A stretch of 64,000 nt of DNA from assembly GCF_002258315.1 (NCBI RefSeq), contig NZ_NOYD01000005.1:55584-119583 (forward strand), given 5' to 3'. Origin of the DNA: Rhodococcus sp. 06-462-5 (lineage in GTDB: Bacteria > Actinomycetota > Actinomycetes > Mycobacteriales > Mycobacteriaceae). A model generated the notes under the pieces. It saw only the letters and a list, made by a program, of their open reading frames with translations, did not search any database and was not told the DNA's origin. Of this stretch, positions 13,979 through 18,953 are shown in pieces. The translations under genes were made by a program, and so were the position numbers. Each line of letters opens with the position of its first letter. The stretch's first letter is position 1.

Positions 13979-14881
13979 CTATCGACGCCTCGGCTTGGCT
14001 CCGGGTTTCGGCGCGGTGACCGCCGATGTCGCCTCCGGCTCGACACTCGGTTCTCGGTCGATGCGTCGGTAGACGAGGTGCTGCTGGGCGTAGGTCCAGA
14101 TGTTGTTGCTCACCCAGTACAGCAACACCGCAACCGGAAGTACCGGCCCACCGACGAGCACGCCCGCCGGGAACACCCAGAGCACGAGCTTGTTCATGAT
14201 CGCGGTCTGGGGGTTGGCGAGCGCCGCTGCGTCCTGCCGGGCGACGGACGCCCGCGAGTTCATGTGCGTGGCCCCCGCGGCGACGATCATCAACGGGACC
14301 GCGACGAACGCGATGCTCCACACCGACGGCACTCCCCCGAACGGACCGAAGGCCTCGAGCACCTCCCGAGAGCTGTTGACGGCAGCCGAGATCGGCGCGC
14401 CGAAGAGCCGTGCGTCGAGAAAGGACTGCACATCGGCGGCGCTGAAGACGTAGTTCGCGGTGTTCGCATTCTCCTGCGCCGTCATACCGAGATGACCGAA
14501 TCCGGTTCCGGTTCGGTTGAACGAACGCAACACGTGCAGCAGTCCGATGAAGACCGGTCCCTGCGCCAGCAGGGGCAGGCACCCCATCAGGGGGTTGAAA
14601 CCGTGTTCCTGCTGCAATTTCCGCATCTCGGTTGCCTGGCGAGCGCGGTCCCCGGAGTACTTCTTCTGTACGGCCTCGATCTGTGGTCGGAGCCTTTTCA
14701 TGGCTAGCTGCGAACGAATCTGGCTGACGAACGGCTTGATCAGCAGCGCACGCAGCGTGAAGACCAGGAATATCACCGCCAGGGCCCAGGCGAATCCGTT
14801 GTCGGGGCCGAGCACGGACCCGAAGACTCTGTGCCAGAACCACAGCACCGCGGAAACGGGATAGTAGACGAAATCGAGCAT
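13979..14881 (-). CDS. yidC: YidC/Oxa1 membrane protein insertase paralogue
   Basis: The 300-residue protein matches the 60KD_IMP insertase core. It has an N-terminal helix, a basic cytosolic loop with a coiled-coil-like [22 protein letters not shown] region, and several further helices, ending in a basic tail with PGAKPRRR. It inserts membrane proteins with or without SecYEG. The usual actinobacterial yidC sits beside rpmH-rnpA near the origin; those genes are absent here, so this is probably the second copy. The ATG at 14881 is used, with GTGAGG upstream. Two RAPG-tailed small membrane proteins precede it, which suggests translational control by insertion activity. Confidence 0.93.
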
Positions 14882-14944
14882 GGTGGAGCACCTCACTGTG
14901 AGAGAAGTCGGTCGGTTGGCATCTCGACCGGATCTCGCAGTGGC

Positions 14945-15283
14945 TCAGGAGAACTGGAGCCACCGGTCCGGTCCATGGACCGGACCGGGCGCTCTGGGCA
15001 TGGGGCGACCCGGCGCATCGGGTTGCTGTTGCCTGCGGAACGATCCCCGAAGTCGCCGCCCGTCCGCGCCTGCAGCGCACGACGCCGGCGGTGCGATCAC
15101 TGCGAGGCCGGACGGCGCACCGAGGACGACCAGGGACGCCGCGACCAACGCACCGAACATCGCTATCTGTGCGGCGGGTTGTGCGTCGACGACAGCGAAG
15201 ACGACGAGCAGGACGGCCAGGACGCCGACCAGTGTCCCGGCGTCGCGTCGAATCGTCGGGTGAAGGGTTCGAGAATCGAGCAT
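14945..15283 (-). CDS. DUF6412-like small membrane protein with RAPG tail, putative arrest peptide 1
   Basis: The 112-residue protein starts at an ATG with GAGGAACC upstream. It has two membrane helices (about 15-33 and 38-58), a short loop, then a basic tail with LRGSFRRQ followed by a Pro-rich stretch containing PRAPG (Arg97-Gly100), 12 residues before the end. Its tail nearly repeats that of the next upstream gene. From memory, small actinobacterial proteins of this type (ApcA) upstream of yidC stall ribosomes at an RAPG motif, as MifM does for YidC2 in Bacillus. Its place 63 bp before yidC fits that role. The DUF number is recalled, not searched. Confidence 0.8.
   Translation of the reverse strand: MLDSRTLHPTIRRDAGTLVGVLAVLLVVFAVVDAQPAAQIAMFGALVAASLVVLGAPSGLAVIAPPASCAAGADGRRLRGSFRRQQQPDAPGRPMPRAPGPVHGPDRWLQFS
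14963..14988. promoter_or_regulatory. 26-bp perfect palindrome over the RAPG codons
   Basis: A 26-base perfect palindrome begins within codons 99-100 of the putative arrest peptide and covers the next codons. In mRNA it would form a strong G/C hairpin exactly where a ribosome stalled at RAPG sits. A second stem (14940-14946 with 14957-14963, 7 bp) overlaps the stop codon. Both lie upstream of the yidC ribosome site and could couple stalling to yidC translation. Confidence 0.6.
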
Positions 15284-15328
15284 TTTCGGTTCCTCGTGAC
15301 AGCCTTGCGGACAACGGGTTGCCAAGGC

Positions 15329-15360
15329 GTGGGGGAACTTTCGAGTTAGAGTGCCCCCAC
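15329..15360 (-). promoter_or_regulatory. Stem-loop spanning the end of arrest-peptide gene 2
   Basis: GTGGGGG and CCCCCAC arms (15329-15335 and 15354-15360) form a 7-bp stem whose 18-nt loop holds the stop codon of the upstream RAPG gene. The arm nearer that gene starts about 7 nt after its RAPG Gly codon, so a stalled ribosome would mask it. The other arm overlaps GTTCC, which is complementary to GGAAC in the next gene's ribosome site. The direction of any control is unresolved. Confidence 0.4.
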
Positions 15361-15630
15361 CGATGCACCGGGTGCGCGTGGCTGCGGTCGGCCCGGAGCA
15401 TCCGGGCGATGTTGACGCCGGAACGCACCTCGAAGGTGGCGTTCCTCTGCGGTGGGGCCGACATTCGGTAGTGACCGCAGCAGTGCCGGAACATCGACAC
15501 GGTGCGCGAGCACCATCAGCGTGGCCAGCGCCGCGACGAGAATCAGAGCCACGTCTGTGGTTGCGGTCGGCATCGTCAGGTACAGCGACACGAGGAGAAG
15601 CGAAGTGACGACCATGCTCTGGTATCTCAT
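15346..15630 (-). CDS. DUF6412-like small membrane protein with RAPG tail, putative arrest peptide 2
   Basis: The 94-residue paralogue of the next gene starts at an ATG preceded by GGGAGG. It has two helices (about 5-22 and 25-43), then LRGAFRRQ, PDAPGRP and PRAPG at Arg85-Gly88, only six residues before the stop. The two paralogues align closely in the tail but differ in the helices, as expected if the tail is the selected part. A small inverted repeat, GCACCCGGTGC on the coding strand, falls on its Ala-Pro-Gly codons. It is 62 bp upstream of paralogue 1 and 39 bp after the DUF4173 gene. Confidence 0.78.
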   Translation of the reverse strand: MRYQSMVVTSLLLVSLYLTMPTATTDVALILVAALATLMVLAHRVDVPALLRSLPNVGPTAEERHLRGAFRRQHRPDAPGRPQPRAPGASVGAL

Positions 15631-15669: not shown

Positions 15670-17100
15670 TCAGGGTACAGATACGGAGGGGTCCGTGCAC
15701 AGGTGCCAGGTATCGCCGAGTAACACCGGACCGCGAGCCTGTACACACGGACGCACGTACTCGGGCAGTCGGTCGAGCTCCGCGTCGGCGTCGGCCGACA
15801 ACCCACCCACGTAGGACGTATCGATGCGTCCGGTCTGCTCGAAGCGATCGACGTTGTGCCGGGCGATGTACGCATCCGGGTTCAGGGCGGCCAGCGCGAG
15901 GACGGTCAGAACGGCACCGACGCCCACGGCTCTCGGTAGCCAGCGCCCCGACATCCGCACGCCCGACACCAGAACCAGTACGAACACCGATCCCAGCCAC
16001 CACTCGACAGCCGTGACGAACAACCTGAGCGTCGTGTAGCCGTACTGCTGCTCGTACAACGACATTCGATGCAGGGCCGACGCAACGATCACCAACGACA
16101 GCAGGCACAGCGCTCCGAGCAACGCCCGCAGTGCAATTCGATCTCCCCGGTCTTGTCGACGAGCCTTCGCGACCGTCACAGCGATGACGAGCAGTGTCAG
16201 TACCGTGACCGCGAGCAATTGCCAGAAGCCCTGCCGGGCGTATTCGGCGTTGGTCAGCCCCTCGGTGGTGAGGACGTGCCCCTGCCCGCCGAACAGCGTC
16301 GGCACCTGGAACCCGACGAACACGACGAACAGGGCCACCACCGCCCCGAGGGGAACCATCCACTCCCACAACTGCACTGTTCGACGCGGCGACGGTGCGA
16401 GGCGATCGAACCGAGGCGGATGCAGCGCGACGTAGGCGACGGCGAGCGCACCTGCTGCGGTGAGCACGAAGACGAGAATGCGCCCGACGACGGACGCGGC
16501 ATCGAACTCGGGTGTCACCGCACTCAGCGCATCCGCAAAACGCTTGTCGGCCGCACCGAACAACGCTGCGAACACGACCAGGAGCGCGATCGTGACAACC
16601 GAGACCATGCCGATCCGCACCGGCCGTGGCCCCTCCAGATCGATCGAACCGGCTCCGCGTCGGGTCCACCGAGCCACGCGCAGCGGCAGAAACACCGGCA
16701 CCAGAGCGCCGAGTGCGATTCCCGTCCACGTCCAGGCACGAGAGAGCACCACCATTGCGACCACGATGGCGAGCGTCGTCGACATCGTCACGATCCACTC
16801 GGCCGCTCGCAGCGCAGACACGCTCGCCAATGCCAGCACTCCTGCCACTCCTGCCCATTCCCACGGCGTGAGTCTGCCGCTGCGCGCTGCGAGCACGACG
16901 GCCACGAAGGCGAGGGCAGTGATCAGCACACCGAATGTGTTGTCCACCAACGTCACCGAACCGATCAGCGCGGCGACAGCGGATCCGATCAGCGCCGCAC
17001 GAGGAGCCTGCGCATACCGCAGCACCGGCCAGGTGCGAGGCCCCCAGAAAGAGTGACCGTGCTTCGCTATCGGGTCTACCGGAGTGTCGATCGTGGTCAT
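15670..17100 (-). CDS. DUF4173/DUF4153-like polytopic membrane protein
   Basis: The 476-residue protein starts at the ATG at 17100 (GAAGGAAG upstream); the longer frame into the kinase gene is a shadow. It has a short soluble N-terminus, at least ten hydrophobic segments, and a C-terminal extracytoplasmic stretch after IARHNVDRF, a segment I associate with DUF4173/DUF4153 proteins. The function is unknown. It lies 88 bp behind a two-component system and 39 bp before the RAPG genes on the same strand, so it may share envelope-related control. Confidence 0.75.
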   Translation of the reverse strand: MTTIDTPVDPIAKHGHSFWGPRTWPVLRYAQAPRAALIGSAVAALIGSVTLVDNTFGVLITALAFVAVVLAARSGRLTPWEWAGVAGVLALASVSALRAAEWIVTMSTTLAIVVAMVVLSRAWTWTGIALGALVPVFLPLRVARWTRRGAGSIDLEGPRPVRIGMVSVVTIALLVVFAALFGAADKRFADALSAVTPEFDAASVVGRILVFVLTAAGALAVAYVALHPPRFDRLAPSPRRTVQLWEWMVPLGAVVALFVVFVGFQVPTLFGGQGHVLTTEGLTNAEYARQGFWQLLAVTVLTLLVIAVTVAKARRQDRGDRIALRALLGALCLLSLVIVASALHRMSLYEQQYGYTTLRLFVTAVEWWLGSVFVLVLVSGVRMSGRWLPRAVGVGAVLTVLALAALNPDAYIARHNVDRFEQTGRIDTSYVGGLSADADAELDRLPEYVRPCVQARGPVLLGDTWHLCTDPSVSVP

Positions 17101-17188
17101 GGCGCTTCCTTCTTCTGTGTTTCGGGCATGGAAGGTCGGCGGCTGCGGTACGGGGACATGCAGTCGCGTTTCGGGTGGATCGAGAGAG

Positions 17189-18163
17189 TCAGTGCTCGGG
17201 GATGGCCACTCTGATGTGGCAGCCGAATTCGCTGTCGAGGACTTCGATGGTTCCGCCGTGCAGTTCGGTGGCCCAGCGGGCGATGCCGAGGCCCAGACCT
17301 GTTCCGCCGTCGGTGGATCCGCCGCGGGTGAATCGGTCGAACACCGCGTGGCGATCGGCGAGCGCGATGCCTGGACCCTGGTCGACGACGTCGAATGCAT
17401 ACGCTCCACCGATCCGATGGGCCCGTACCGTCACGGTGCTCGAATGGGGGGAATGCCGCACGGCGTTGTCGACGAGGTTGGTGATCACCTGTGTCATGCG
17501 AGATCGGTCGGCCACCACAGTCGAATCACCGGGCGAGACGACGATCGACACTCGTTCTCGGTGAACGGCTGTCGCATCCTCGAGGAATTGCCGAACCGCG
17601 AACTCCTCCGGGGCAATGGTGAGCACACCGCCCTCCACCCGCGACAGGTCGAGCAGTTCGCTGACCAGATCTCCGAGTCTCTCGGTTTGGCGCAACGCCA
17701 CCGCCAGCGTTGCGGGATCAGCGTCGGTGACCCCGTCGACCACGTTCTCGAGCACTGCACGCAGGGCAGCGATGGGCGTCTTCAACTCGTGCGAGACATT
17801 GCCGATGAGTTCGCGGCGGTACTTCTCGGCGGCTTCGAGATCACTTGCCATGGTGTTGAACGCCGTGGCGAGCTCGCCCACCTCGTCCCTGGATGTTGCC
17901 CGCACTCGCGTCGAATAATCGCCTCGCGCCATTGCTTTGGCGGCCGATGTCATTTCGCGCAGCGGTGACGTCATCCCGTGGGCGACGAATTGTGTTGCGG
18001 CCAAGGACACGACCAGCGCTGCGAGGAGGGTGTAGCGAAACTGCCAACCCGCTCCGATCCAGAAGACGACGCTCGCGAGCACCAGCACGATGCCCACGAC
18101 GAGTGAGACCTTGAGCTTGAACGACCGCAACGGATCCAACGGGCGCGGCAGCATTCGCGTCAT
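17189..18163 (-). CDS. Sensor histidine kinase (BaeS/CseC-type)
   Basis: The 324-residue kinase starts at the ATG at 18163, overlapping the response-regulator stop by 4 bases. Two closely spaced membrane helices (about 18-36 and 39-58) leave almost no extracytoplasmic loop, so the signal is probably sensed in or at the membrane. HAMP is followed by HisKA with His in NVSHELKTP and HATPase with NAVRHS, DQGPGIA and GTGLGLGIA. The longer frame to 18289 is a shadow inside the regulator gene. Confidence 0.93.
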   Translation of the reverse strand: MTRMLPRPLDPLRSFKLKVSLVVGIVLVLASVVFWIGAGWQFRYTLLAALVVSLAATQFVAHGMTSPLREMTSAAKAMARGDYSTRVRATSRDEVGELATAFNTMASDLEAAEKYRRELIGNVSHELKTPIAALRAVLENVVDGVTDADPATLAVALRQTERLGDLVSELLDLSRVEGGVLTIAPEEFAVRQFLEDATAVHRERVSIVVSPGDSTVVADRSRMTQVITNLVDNAVRHSPHSSTVTVRAHRIGGAYAFDVVDQGPGIALADRHAVFDRFTRGGSTDGGTGLGLGIARWATELHGGTIEVLDSEFGCHIRVAIPEH

Positions 18164-18834
18164 CGCGGCGACTCCACGGCGTAGCCCACGCCGTGCACGG
18201 TGCGGATGAGATCGCCACCGAGTTTGCGACGCAACGCTTTCACGTGAGAATCGACCGTCCTGCTGCTGGCCGAATCGTCCCAGCCCCACAGTTCCGACAG
18301 CAGCGTTTCGCGCGAGACCGCCGTACGCGGCCGGGCGGCCAAGTAGGCGAGGATATCGAATTCGGTTCTGGTCAAATGGATGTCACCGGAGGGATTGGTC
18401 ACCCGCCGTTCGCGGTGATCGATCTGCACGTCACCGACTCGAACTGCCTGGGGTTCGGCGGCCACCGTACGCTCGGCACGCCGAACCAGGGCGTGCACGC
18501 GAGCGACCAACTCGCGCATACTGAACGGCTTACCCAGGTAGTCGTCGGCGCCGACGCCCAGGCCGACGAGCATGTCCGTCTCGTCGGACTTGGCCGTCAA
18601 CATCAACACCGGCACCGGGCGGGCCGCCTGGATACGGCGGCACACTTCGAGTCCGTCGAACCCGGGCAGCATCAGATCGAGCACCACTACGTCGGGATCG
18701 ATCCGGGCGCACGCGTCGACGGCAGACGGGCCGTCGGCGGCCGTGACGACCTCGTACCCTTCGCCGCGCAGCCGAGCAGCAACGGCCTCGGAGATCGTGG
18801 GCTCGTCGTCGACGACGAGAACTGTGCGGCTCAT
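18160..18834 (-). CDS. OmpR-family response regulator
   Basis: The 224-residue regulator has the acidic pair Asp9-Asp10, phosphoacceptor Asp53 (LDLMLPGFDG), the Lys of the KPFSM motif, and a winged-helix domain ending VHGVGYAVE. The ATG at 18834 gives the family length; the frame to 18948 is non-homologous. It is the first gene of a minus-strand unit containing the kinase and perhaps DUF4173. It is divergent from an iron-binding lipoprotein gene. Confidence 0.94.
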   Translation of the reverse strand: MSRTVLVVDDEPTISEAVAARLRGEGYEVVTAADGPSAVDACARIDPDVVVLDLMLPGFDGLEVCRRIQAARPVPVLMLTAKSDETDMLVGLGVGADDYLGKPFSMRELVARVHALVRRAERTVAAEPQAVRVGDVQIDHRERRVTNPSGDIHLTRTEFDILAYLAARPRTAVSRETLLSELWGWDDSASSRTVDSHVKALRRKLGGDLIRTVHGVGYAVESPR

Positions 18835-18953
18835 GAGAACTGACCCTAGAGGGCGTACATGGAGGAGCCCGTCGGGAAATGTGGAGGTTCGGTGAAGGTT
18901 CGAGCAGGGCGTTCGGCGTCGCAGCGGCAACCGAGCGCGGTCACACATCGAAA

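Follow-up and report, generated by a model that had tools for sequence, protein, structure and literature searches.

Two ApcA-like DUF6412 leaders in series upstream of a second yidC in Rhodococcus: predicted arrest peptides most likely brought together when an ABC transporter was lost

On the leaders MifM and SecM, the stalled ribosome frees the downstream Shine-Dalgarno (SD) sequence. In both systems leader arrest occurs before an insertase or translocase gene, yidC2 in Bacillus subtilis and secA in Escherichia coli (PMC7897499), an arrangement also predicted for the locus described here. However, their arrest sequences are unlike those of the two open reading frames of this locus, ORF1 and ORF2, and SD unmasking is supported here in part of the genus only. 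ApcA of R. erythropolis is closer. This 108-residue peptide stalls in vitro and, in reporter assays, in vivo, in a RAP-dependent manner (PMC7897499, PMC12992588). In an alanine scan, L83, G85, F87, R88 and arrest-proximal residues proved crucial, and S92A and D78A had an effect in the opposite direction to that of the crucial-residue mutants (PMC7897499). The screen of PMC7897499 considered, for each sec or yidC gene, just the ORF next to it on the upstream side. Another survey, limited to uORFs of yidC, secA and secDF, reported 1,590 ApcA-like sequences from actinobacteria, which may include some ORFs of the present loci, and placed the stall on residue three of RAPG-like motifs; neither 'tandem' nor 'duplicat' occurs in its main text (PMC10987492).

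Other RAP-type leaders are likewise small membrane proteins with the motif at the C-terminus and lie upstream of diverse genes unrelated to protein localisation, which means that targets beyond that field have a precedent (PMC12992588). Those leaders differ in carrying RAPP and RGPP, not RAPG, and 'transporter' has no occurrence in the main text. In Streptomyces lividans, SLIV_33595 and SLIV_33605 are both upstream of ECF sigma-factor genes, and the passages of PMC12992588 on them describe no pair in series. The term DUF6412 was not found in the literature searched, nor was any description of ApcA-type leaders in series or of DUF6297-transporter leaders; subscription papers and supplements lay outside this search.

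We analysed a stretch of 64,000 nucleotides of Rhodococcus sp. 06-462-5 (contig NZ_NOYD01000005.1), hereafter the window. The genes of interest follow each other on the minus strand in the order response regulator, sensor kinase, DUF4153, ORF1, ORF2 and YidC-type insertase (Table 1), the response regulator being assigned by reading the ORF and not by profile scan. ORF1 and ORF2 match PF19950 (DUF6412) with 36.3 and 31.9 bits (cut-off 26.9), and the insertase passes NF002899 with 487 bits (cut-off 276). These two ORFs are the sole DUF6412 matches of the source genome, which has two YidC genes. A sequence-only reading had described adjacent minus-strand genes for 94- and 112-residue proteins before a yidC-type gene, with near-identical tails on different helices and RAPG starting at residues 85 (ORF1) and 97 (ORF2). 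Coordinates and both profiles agree with this description and the residue numbers are correct; from LRG to RAPG the tails are identical at 19 of 23 residues, and the N-terminal hydrophobic parts are unlike. With a probability of about 0.68, we propose that both ORFs are arrest leaders, ORF2 serving yidC2 and ORF1 having been stranded by a deletion from an ABC/DUF6297 transporter.

Table 1. Positions of the predicted leaders and neighbouring elements in the window
Feature	Position	Strand	Basis or remark
ORF1, predicted distal DUF6412 leader, 94 aa	15346..15630	-	PF19950 match; orthology to transporter leaders
ORF2, predicted proximal ApcA-like DUF6412 leader, 112 aa	14945..15283	-	directly upstream of yidC
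YidC-type insertase, the genome's second yidC	13979..14881	-	NF002899 and genome search
ORF1 RAPG codons CGC GCA CCC GGT	15367..15378	-	stall expected with the Pro codon in the P-site, from ApcA (PMC10987492)
ORF2 RAPG codons AGA GCG CCC GGT	14984..14995	-	
Inverted repeat GGTGGGGG...CCCCCAC just 3' of ORF1 RAPG, across the ORF1 stop codon	15329..15361	-	
Hairpin CCGGTCCGGTCC...GGACCGGACCGG just 3' of the putative ORF2 arrest site	14963..14988	-	
ORF2 ribosome-binding region and start, CACGAGGAACCGAAAATG	15281..15298	-	
yidC ribosome-binding region and start, GTGAGGTGCTCCACCATG	14879..14896	-	
DUF4153 membrane protein, upstream of ORF1 with a 39-nt gap	15670..17100	-	context, same strand
Sensor histidine kinase (longest ORF)	17189..18289	-	many weak kinase-family matches, all below cut-offs

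Judged by their sequences, both ORFs are most likely translation-arrest leaders of the ApcA (DUF6412) kind. R. erythropolis NBRC 15567 has one DUF6412 match (G528, locus L080), upstream of YidC, with a possible 108-aa reading that has ApcA's letters at ApcA's numbers; DUF6412 is the ApcA family. The two ORFs share with ApcA the DUF6412 tail, with L-G-FR and RAPG at equal spacing, and the hydrophobic N-terminus. All ApcA-crucial residues are kept in ORF1 (L83, G85, F87, R88 and the arrest-proximal stretch to R102-A103-P104). ORF2 keeps them except for a Met at the place of Gln100, which by our own count of the stretch limits is among seven arrest-proximal residues where mutation weakened ApcA, and this counts against an ApcA-type arrest. 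Each ORF has at least two hydrophobic stretches in a hydropathy scan that often split or overlapped segments. The median distance from the last stretch to RAPG is 42 residues in ORF1 (27 sequences) and 36 in ORF2 (23 sequences), the latter below the value of >40 used in PMC7897499. ORF2, like apcA, is immediately upstream of the second yidC. Unlike the single leader of R. erythropolis NBRC 15567, however, two stand in series here, and relatives of ORF1 precede an ABC transporter.

In the genus (Rhodococcoides / R. fascians group), 37 genomes were searched; close pairs of DUF6412 matches occur in 23 and single matches in seven, which makes 30 genomes with a match and seven without any. The starts of the hits within pairs are 346-436 nt apart in 19 genomes and about 2.36 kb apart in four. 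The order kinase, DUF4153, two leaders, YidC and exonuclease homologue is found in 23/23 pairs, always with ORF2 directly upstream of yidC. The gene after ORF1 is ORF2 in 19 pairs and an ABC ATPase in four; since it is never immediately yidC in the pairs, we file ORF1 as a DUF6412 leader of another class and not as apcA. A search for tandem DUF6412-yidC loci elsewhere, and conservation of the tail in homologues, had been named by the sequence-only reading as tests of its proposal. The pair is kept in 23 of the 37 genomes and RAPG in 46/46 of its ORFs, and 14 control genomes gave no PF19950 match, which argues that the pair is more than chance. Outside the genus, DUF6412 matches occur in 99 of 301 genomes of the family and in 99 of 394 of the class. 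No close pair was found among them, with at most 25 candidates scored per family genome and 20 per class genome, so that weak second copies could escape. Two matches in one genome, on separate contigs or at a great distance from each other, were seen in five genomes of the family (G166, G616, G655, G664 and G673) and in one of the class (G161).

Four of the genus pairs (G007, G008, G013 and G023) have an ABC ATPase (208 aa in all four) and a 462-aa DUF6297 permease between ORF1 and ORF2, and in G007, G013 and G023, the three read with that start, the stop of the permease and the start codon of ORF2 overlap. In G019, G026, G029 and G031, the transporter follows ORF1, and a tblastn search of the 4.5 kb fetched gave no YidC2. 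A DUF6412 leader also stands before a homologous transporter in G022 and at the second locus of G025. For 80 loci outside the genus, chosen from the family and class matches and not comprising all of them (40 are from the family), the first gene detected downstream was yidC in 62, the transporter in ten, all in the family, and neither in eight. Conversely, DUF6297 is present in 21 of 151 family genomes, and 20 of these 21 operons have a RAP-tailed membrane leader before the ATPase; none was found in G034. RAPG was read from the sequence in 17 of the 20 and RAPA in one (G488), and two (G522 and G550) are known from coordinates only, being counted from a DUF6412 match at a fitting distance. No RAP-tailed leader was found at 29 DUF6297 loci outside the family; one leader screen, which included these loci, used a hydropathy filter, unlike the earlier family selections, and recovered three positive controls.

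ABC/DUF6297 transporters thus apparently form an undescribed target class of RAP-tailed leaders. A proven arrest-peptide family would thereby extend to an uncharacterised ABC transporter, a kind of target new to it, and the presence of such leaders before it hints that the transporter is tied to membrane-protein insertion stress. PADLOC and NCBIfam gave generic matches for the ATPase and nothing for the permease. Seven of the 17 RAPG leaders come from one genus (g170) and gave no DUF6412 match. At these loci (L166, L167, L168, L170, L172, L208 and L209), the DUF6297 transporter follows a small membrane ORF with PRAPG or TRAPG at its end; these ORFs are either relatives that have diverged or RAPG leaders of independent origin. 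L074, L078, L109 and L110 have RAPG or RAPT tails, with neither YidC nor an ABC ATPase detected downstream, and other targets are possible for them.

How the two leaders might act can be outlined by analogy with ApcA. Sequence, gene order, orthology, conservation, the deletion scar and selection on both arrest modules are observed; we infer stalling, its release by YidC, the resulting regulation and any output that ORF1 may have after the deletion. The hydrophobic segments of ORF2 would be inserted by YidC; slow insertion would make the ribosome halt at RAP|G, close to where yidC2 begins, and would raise YidC2 synthesis. Both leaders would stall at RAP|G unless an insertase pulls the chain. 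ORF1 would represent a second leader class, with the ABC ATPase and the DUF6297 permease as its usual target; now placed before ORF2, it could control ORF2 translation and, through ORF2, yidC2. It is a tentative extension, with the odds against it, that the deletion wired two sensors in series, ORF1 gating ORF2 and ORF2 gating yidC2 as a two-input or two-threshold device, together with an ABC/DUF6297 target class that extends family-wide.

We consider it rather unlikely that ORF1 is a relic which still stalls or is slow to decay, regulates nothing and leaves ORF2 as the only leader that matters for yidC2. Its usual partner is absent from 19 of the 23 pairs, and one genome, G003, manages with a single leader; nevertheless, RAPG is retained in 19/19 ORF1s of the transporter-free pairs, and selection on ORF1 has persisted. 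We calculated dN/dS by the Nei-Gojobori method for the arrest module (22 residues and RAPG), the values being averages over related pairs and not tests. For ORF1 in tandems, three overlapping or separate sets gave 0.081, 0.051 and 0.094, as low as with the transporter present (0.058 and 0.079), which argues that ORF1 has not decayed after transporter loss. The ORF2 module gave 0.023-0.092, and both arrest modules are under purifying selection. After RAPG, dN/dS is 1.3-1.7 in all four sets of ORF2 and 0-1.0 in ORF1, where codons are few; the lack of protein constraint on ORF2 past RAPG is expected if its job ends at the arrest site.

A modelled ORF1 stall had no consistent effect on the next start in 29 loci, which would suit a relic: the cost of opening its SD was lower in 9/29 and higher in 13/29, including 4/4 genomes with the transporter and no yidC2. 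With RNAalifold, all 27 aligned regions downstream of ORF1 gave almost nothing (-3.6 kcal/mol); subgroup folds gave a hairpin after the ORF1 RAPG in clade B, that of the window, and in ABC-containing genomes. The inverted repeat at 15329-15361, and at the homologous places, is conserved straight after the RAPG codons and may explain the conserved VGAL C-terminus. Where the transporter is present without yidC2, the ATPase SD is a possible pairing partner of the repeat's 3' arm. The relatives offer a natural experiment, in which one leader is found before the transporter, before another leader or, in G003, directly before yidC.

At the ORF2-yidC junction, the alignment covered 22 of 25 prepared references (L034, L051 and L057 were left out), and both alignment and footprint work used RAPG only. 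In the consensus fold of these 22 regions, the RAP codons pair with the yidC SD, to which they are complementary in most of the genus. In the RAP:SD helix, 96.1% of cells pair, against 34-59% in slid versions. However, none of the pairs varies at both positions across the 22 regions, and shuffled controls perform equally, because other constraints act on each side. In RAPG, Arg is encoded by AGA in 22/23 ORF2s versus 2/27 ORF1s, and AGA makes up 8 of the 189 Arg codons in eight window genes; as the ORF2s are related, this may be one event. When the footprint of a stalled ribosome was blocked, the SD-opening cost fell by >0.5 kcal/mol in 16 of 24 ORF2-yidC loci and rose in two. In the window, the modelled stall leaves the yidC SD closed (6.5 vs 6.5 kcal/mol), and modelling thus gives no support there for SecM-like unmasking of the yidC start.

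As a control, PRAPG was recoded synonymously 40 times in each of 16 of the 24 loci. Recodings that matched the native release numbered 0/40 in L034, L035, L043, L051, L052 and L040 (L034/L051 and L035/L043 are close pairs), one or two of 40 in L046, L049 and L056, and 9 to 39 of 40 in seven loci, the window having 14; this favours SD masking by the arrest codons in several of the loci. In the fold of clade A the RAP codons cover the SD, and clade B favours other pairings around it. Given the clade A fold and the recoding control, set against the null result in the window, masking of the SD by the arrest codons is a fair hypothesis for the sister clade, clade A, as far as modelling goes. No SD-masking structure was found for ApcA according to PMC7897499, a statement that merits another look in the clade whose arrest codons appear to do the masking. 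A general rule by which RAP codons mask the yidC SD was dropped: in synonymous shuffles of 92 yidC-type loci from 35 genera, the mean of the genus z-scores was -0.08, with 19/35 negative and -1.26 for the genus itself. The null stall in the window, the lack of two-sided covariation, the missing signal across 35 genera and the inconsistent ORF1 effect all count against the explanation proposed here. Two observations concern single loci. In G003 (L056), an ORF1-type leader lies directly before yidC2, and its RAP codons, CGAGCACC, show complementarity over their full length to the SD region of yidC, GGTGCTCG. In L034 and L051, the ORF2-yidC spacing is 223 nt vs about 95-119 nt, with several apparent copies of a unit of about 37 nt.

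The sequence-only reading had taken the pair for a duplication. An improbable scenario is indeed that the two arose by tandem duplication in place, as a relay or two-threshold device, and that a few genomes later gained the transporter by insertion; the near-identical tails, the retention of RAPG by both copies in 23/23 pairs under purifying selection, and the transporter-free pair as the commoner state (19/23) would suit it. The leader tree does not: the 23 ORF2s form one clade (SH-aLRT 98), and the 27 ORF1s with the single leader of G003 form a separate one (85). Built on 86 columns, this tree leaves open 45 of its 84 inner branches and gives no firm placement relative to the leaders from other genera; it omits L072 (too short), the class loci L112-L151, and L074, L078, L083, L109, L110 and L111, for which no YidC or ABC ATPase was detected downstream. 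Nor does duplication account for ORF1 heading the transporter where yidC2 was not found, or for the transporter leaders in other genera of the family.

The junctions between the leaders also argue against duplication. In G011 (L039; R. fascians type strain NBRC 12155), ORF2 carries the N-terminus of the ATPase as an in-frame fusion: beyond ORF1 the frame gives MLSIDNATRRVGSTAAFDAIS and continues into ORF2, the ATPase start of relatives being MLVINDATRRFGSLTVFSDIS. By BLASTN, the first 133 nt correspond to the ORF1-ATPase junction of relatives and position 184 onward to their ORF2, and this fusion is, by its make-up, a deletion scar. Window-type tandems have ABC-side sequence in common up to about the ribosome-binding site and then a different junction; in the window, ORF2 starts with ATGCTCG, as does the ABC ATPase in relatives. 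The simplest reading of two different junctions is that the transporter was lost at least twice. In the locus tree, genomes with the transporter are scattered among those without, which requires repeated loss, exchange between species, or gain. With the transporter between the leaders in 4/23 genomes and the ATPase scar in G011, ORF1 looks like a transporter leader stranded beside a yidC leader. Thus, the pair is most likely not a tandem duplication, and the two became neighbours by loss of the intervening ABC transporter. The ancestral order would have been ORF1-ABC-permease-ORF2-yidC2, and transporter loss with at least two different junctions would have placed ORF1 directly before ORF2.

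That the ORFs encode small membrane proteins of an ordinary kind, having their own role and a tail that binds something and stalls no ribosome, is very improbable given the RAP-dependent stalling of ApcA (PMC7897499, PMC12992588) and the unconstrained evolution of ORF2 past RAPG, even though, according to PMC7897499, regulation by ApcA was not demonstrated in its native host. As for the surroundings of the pair, their strand also carries, upstream, a two-component system and the DUF4153 membrane protein (15670-18948), with the 39-nt gap to ORF1, and the whole locus may be under envelope-stress control.
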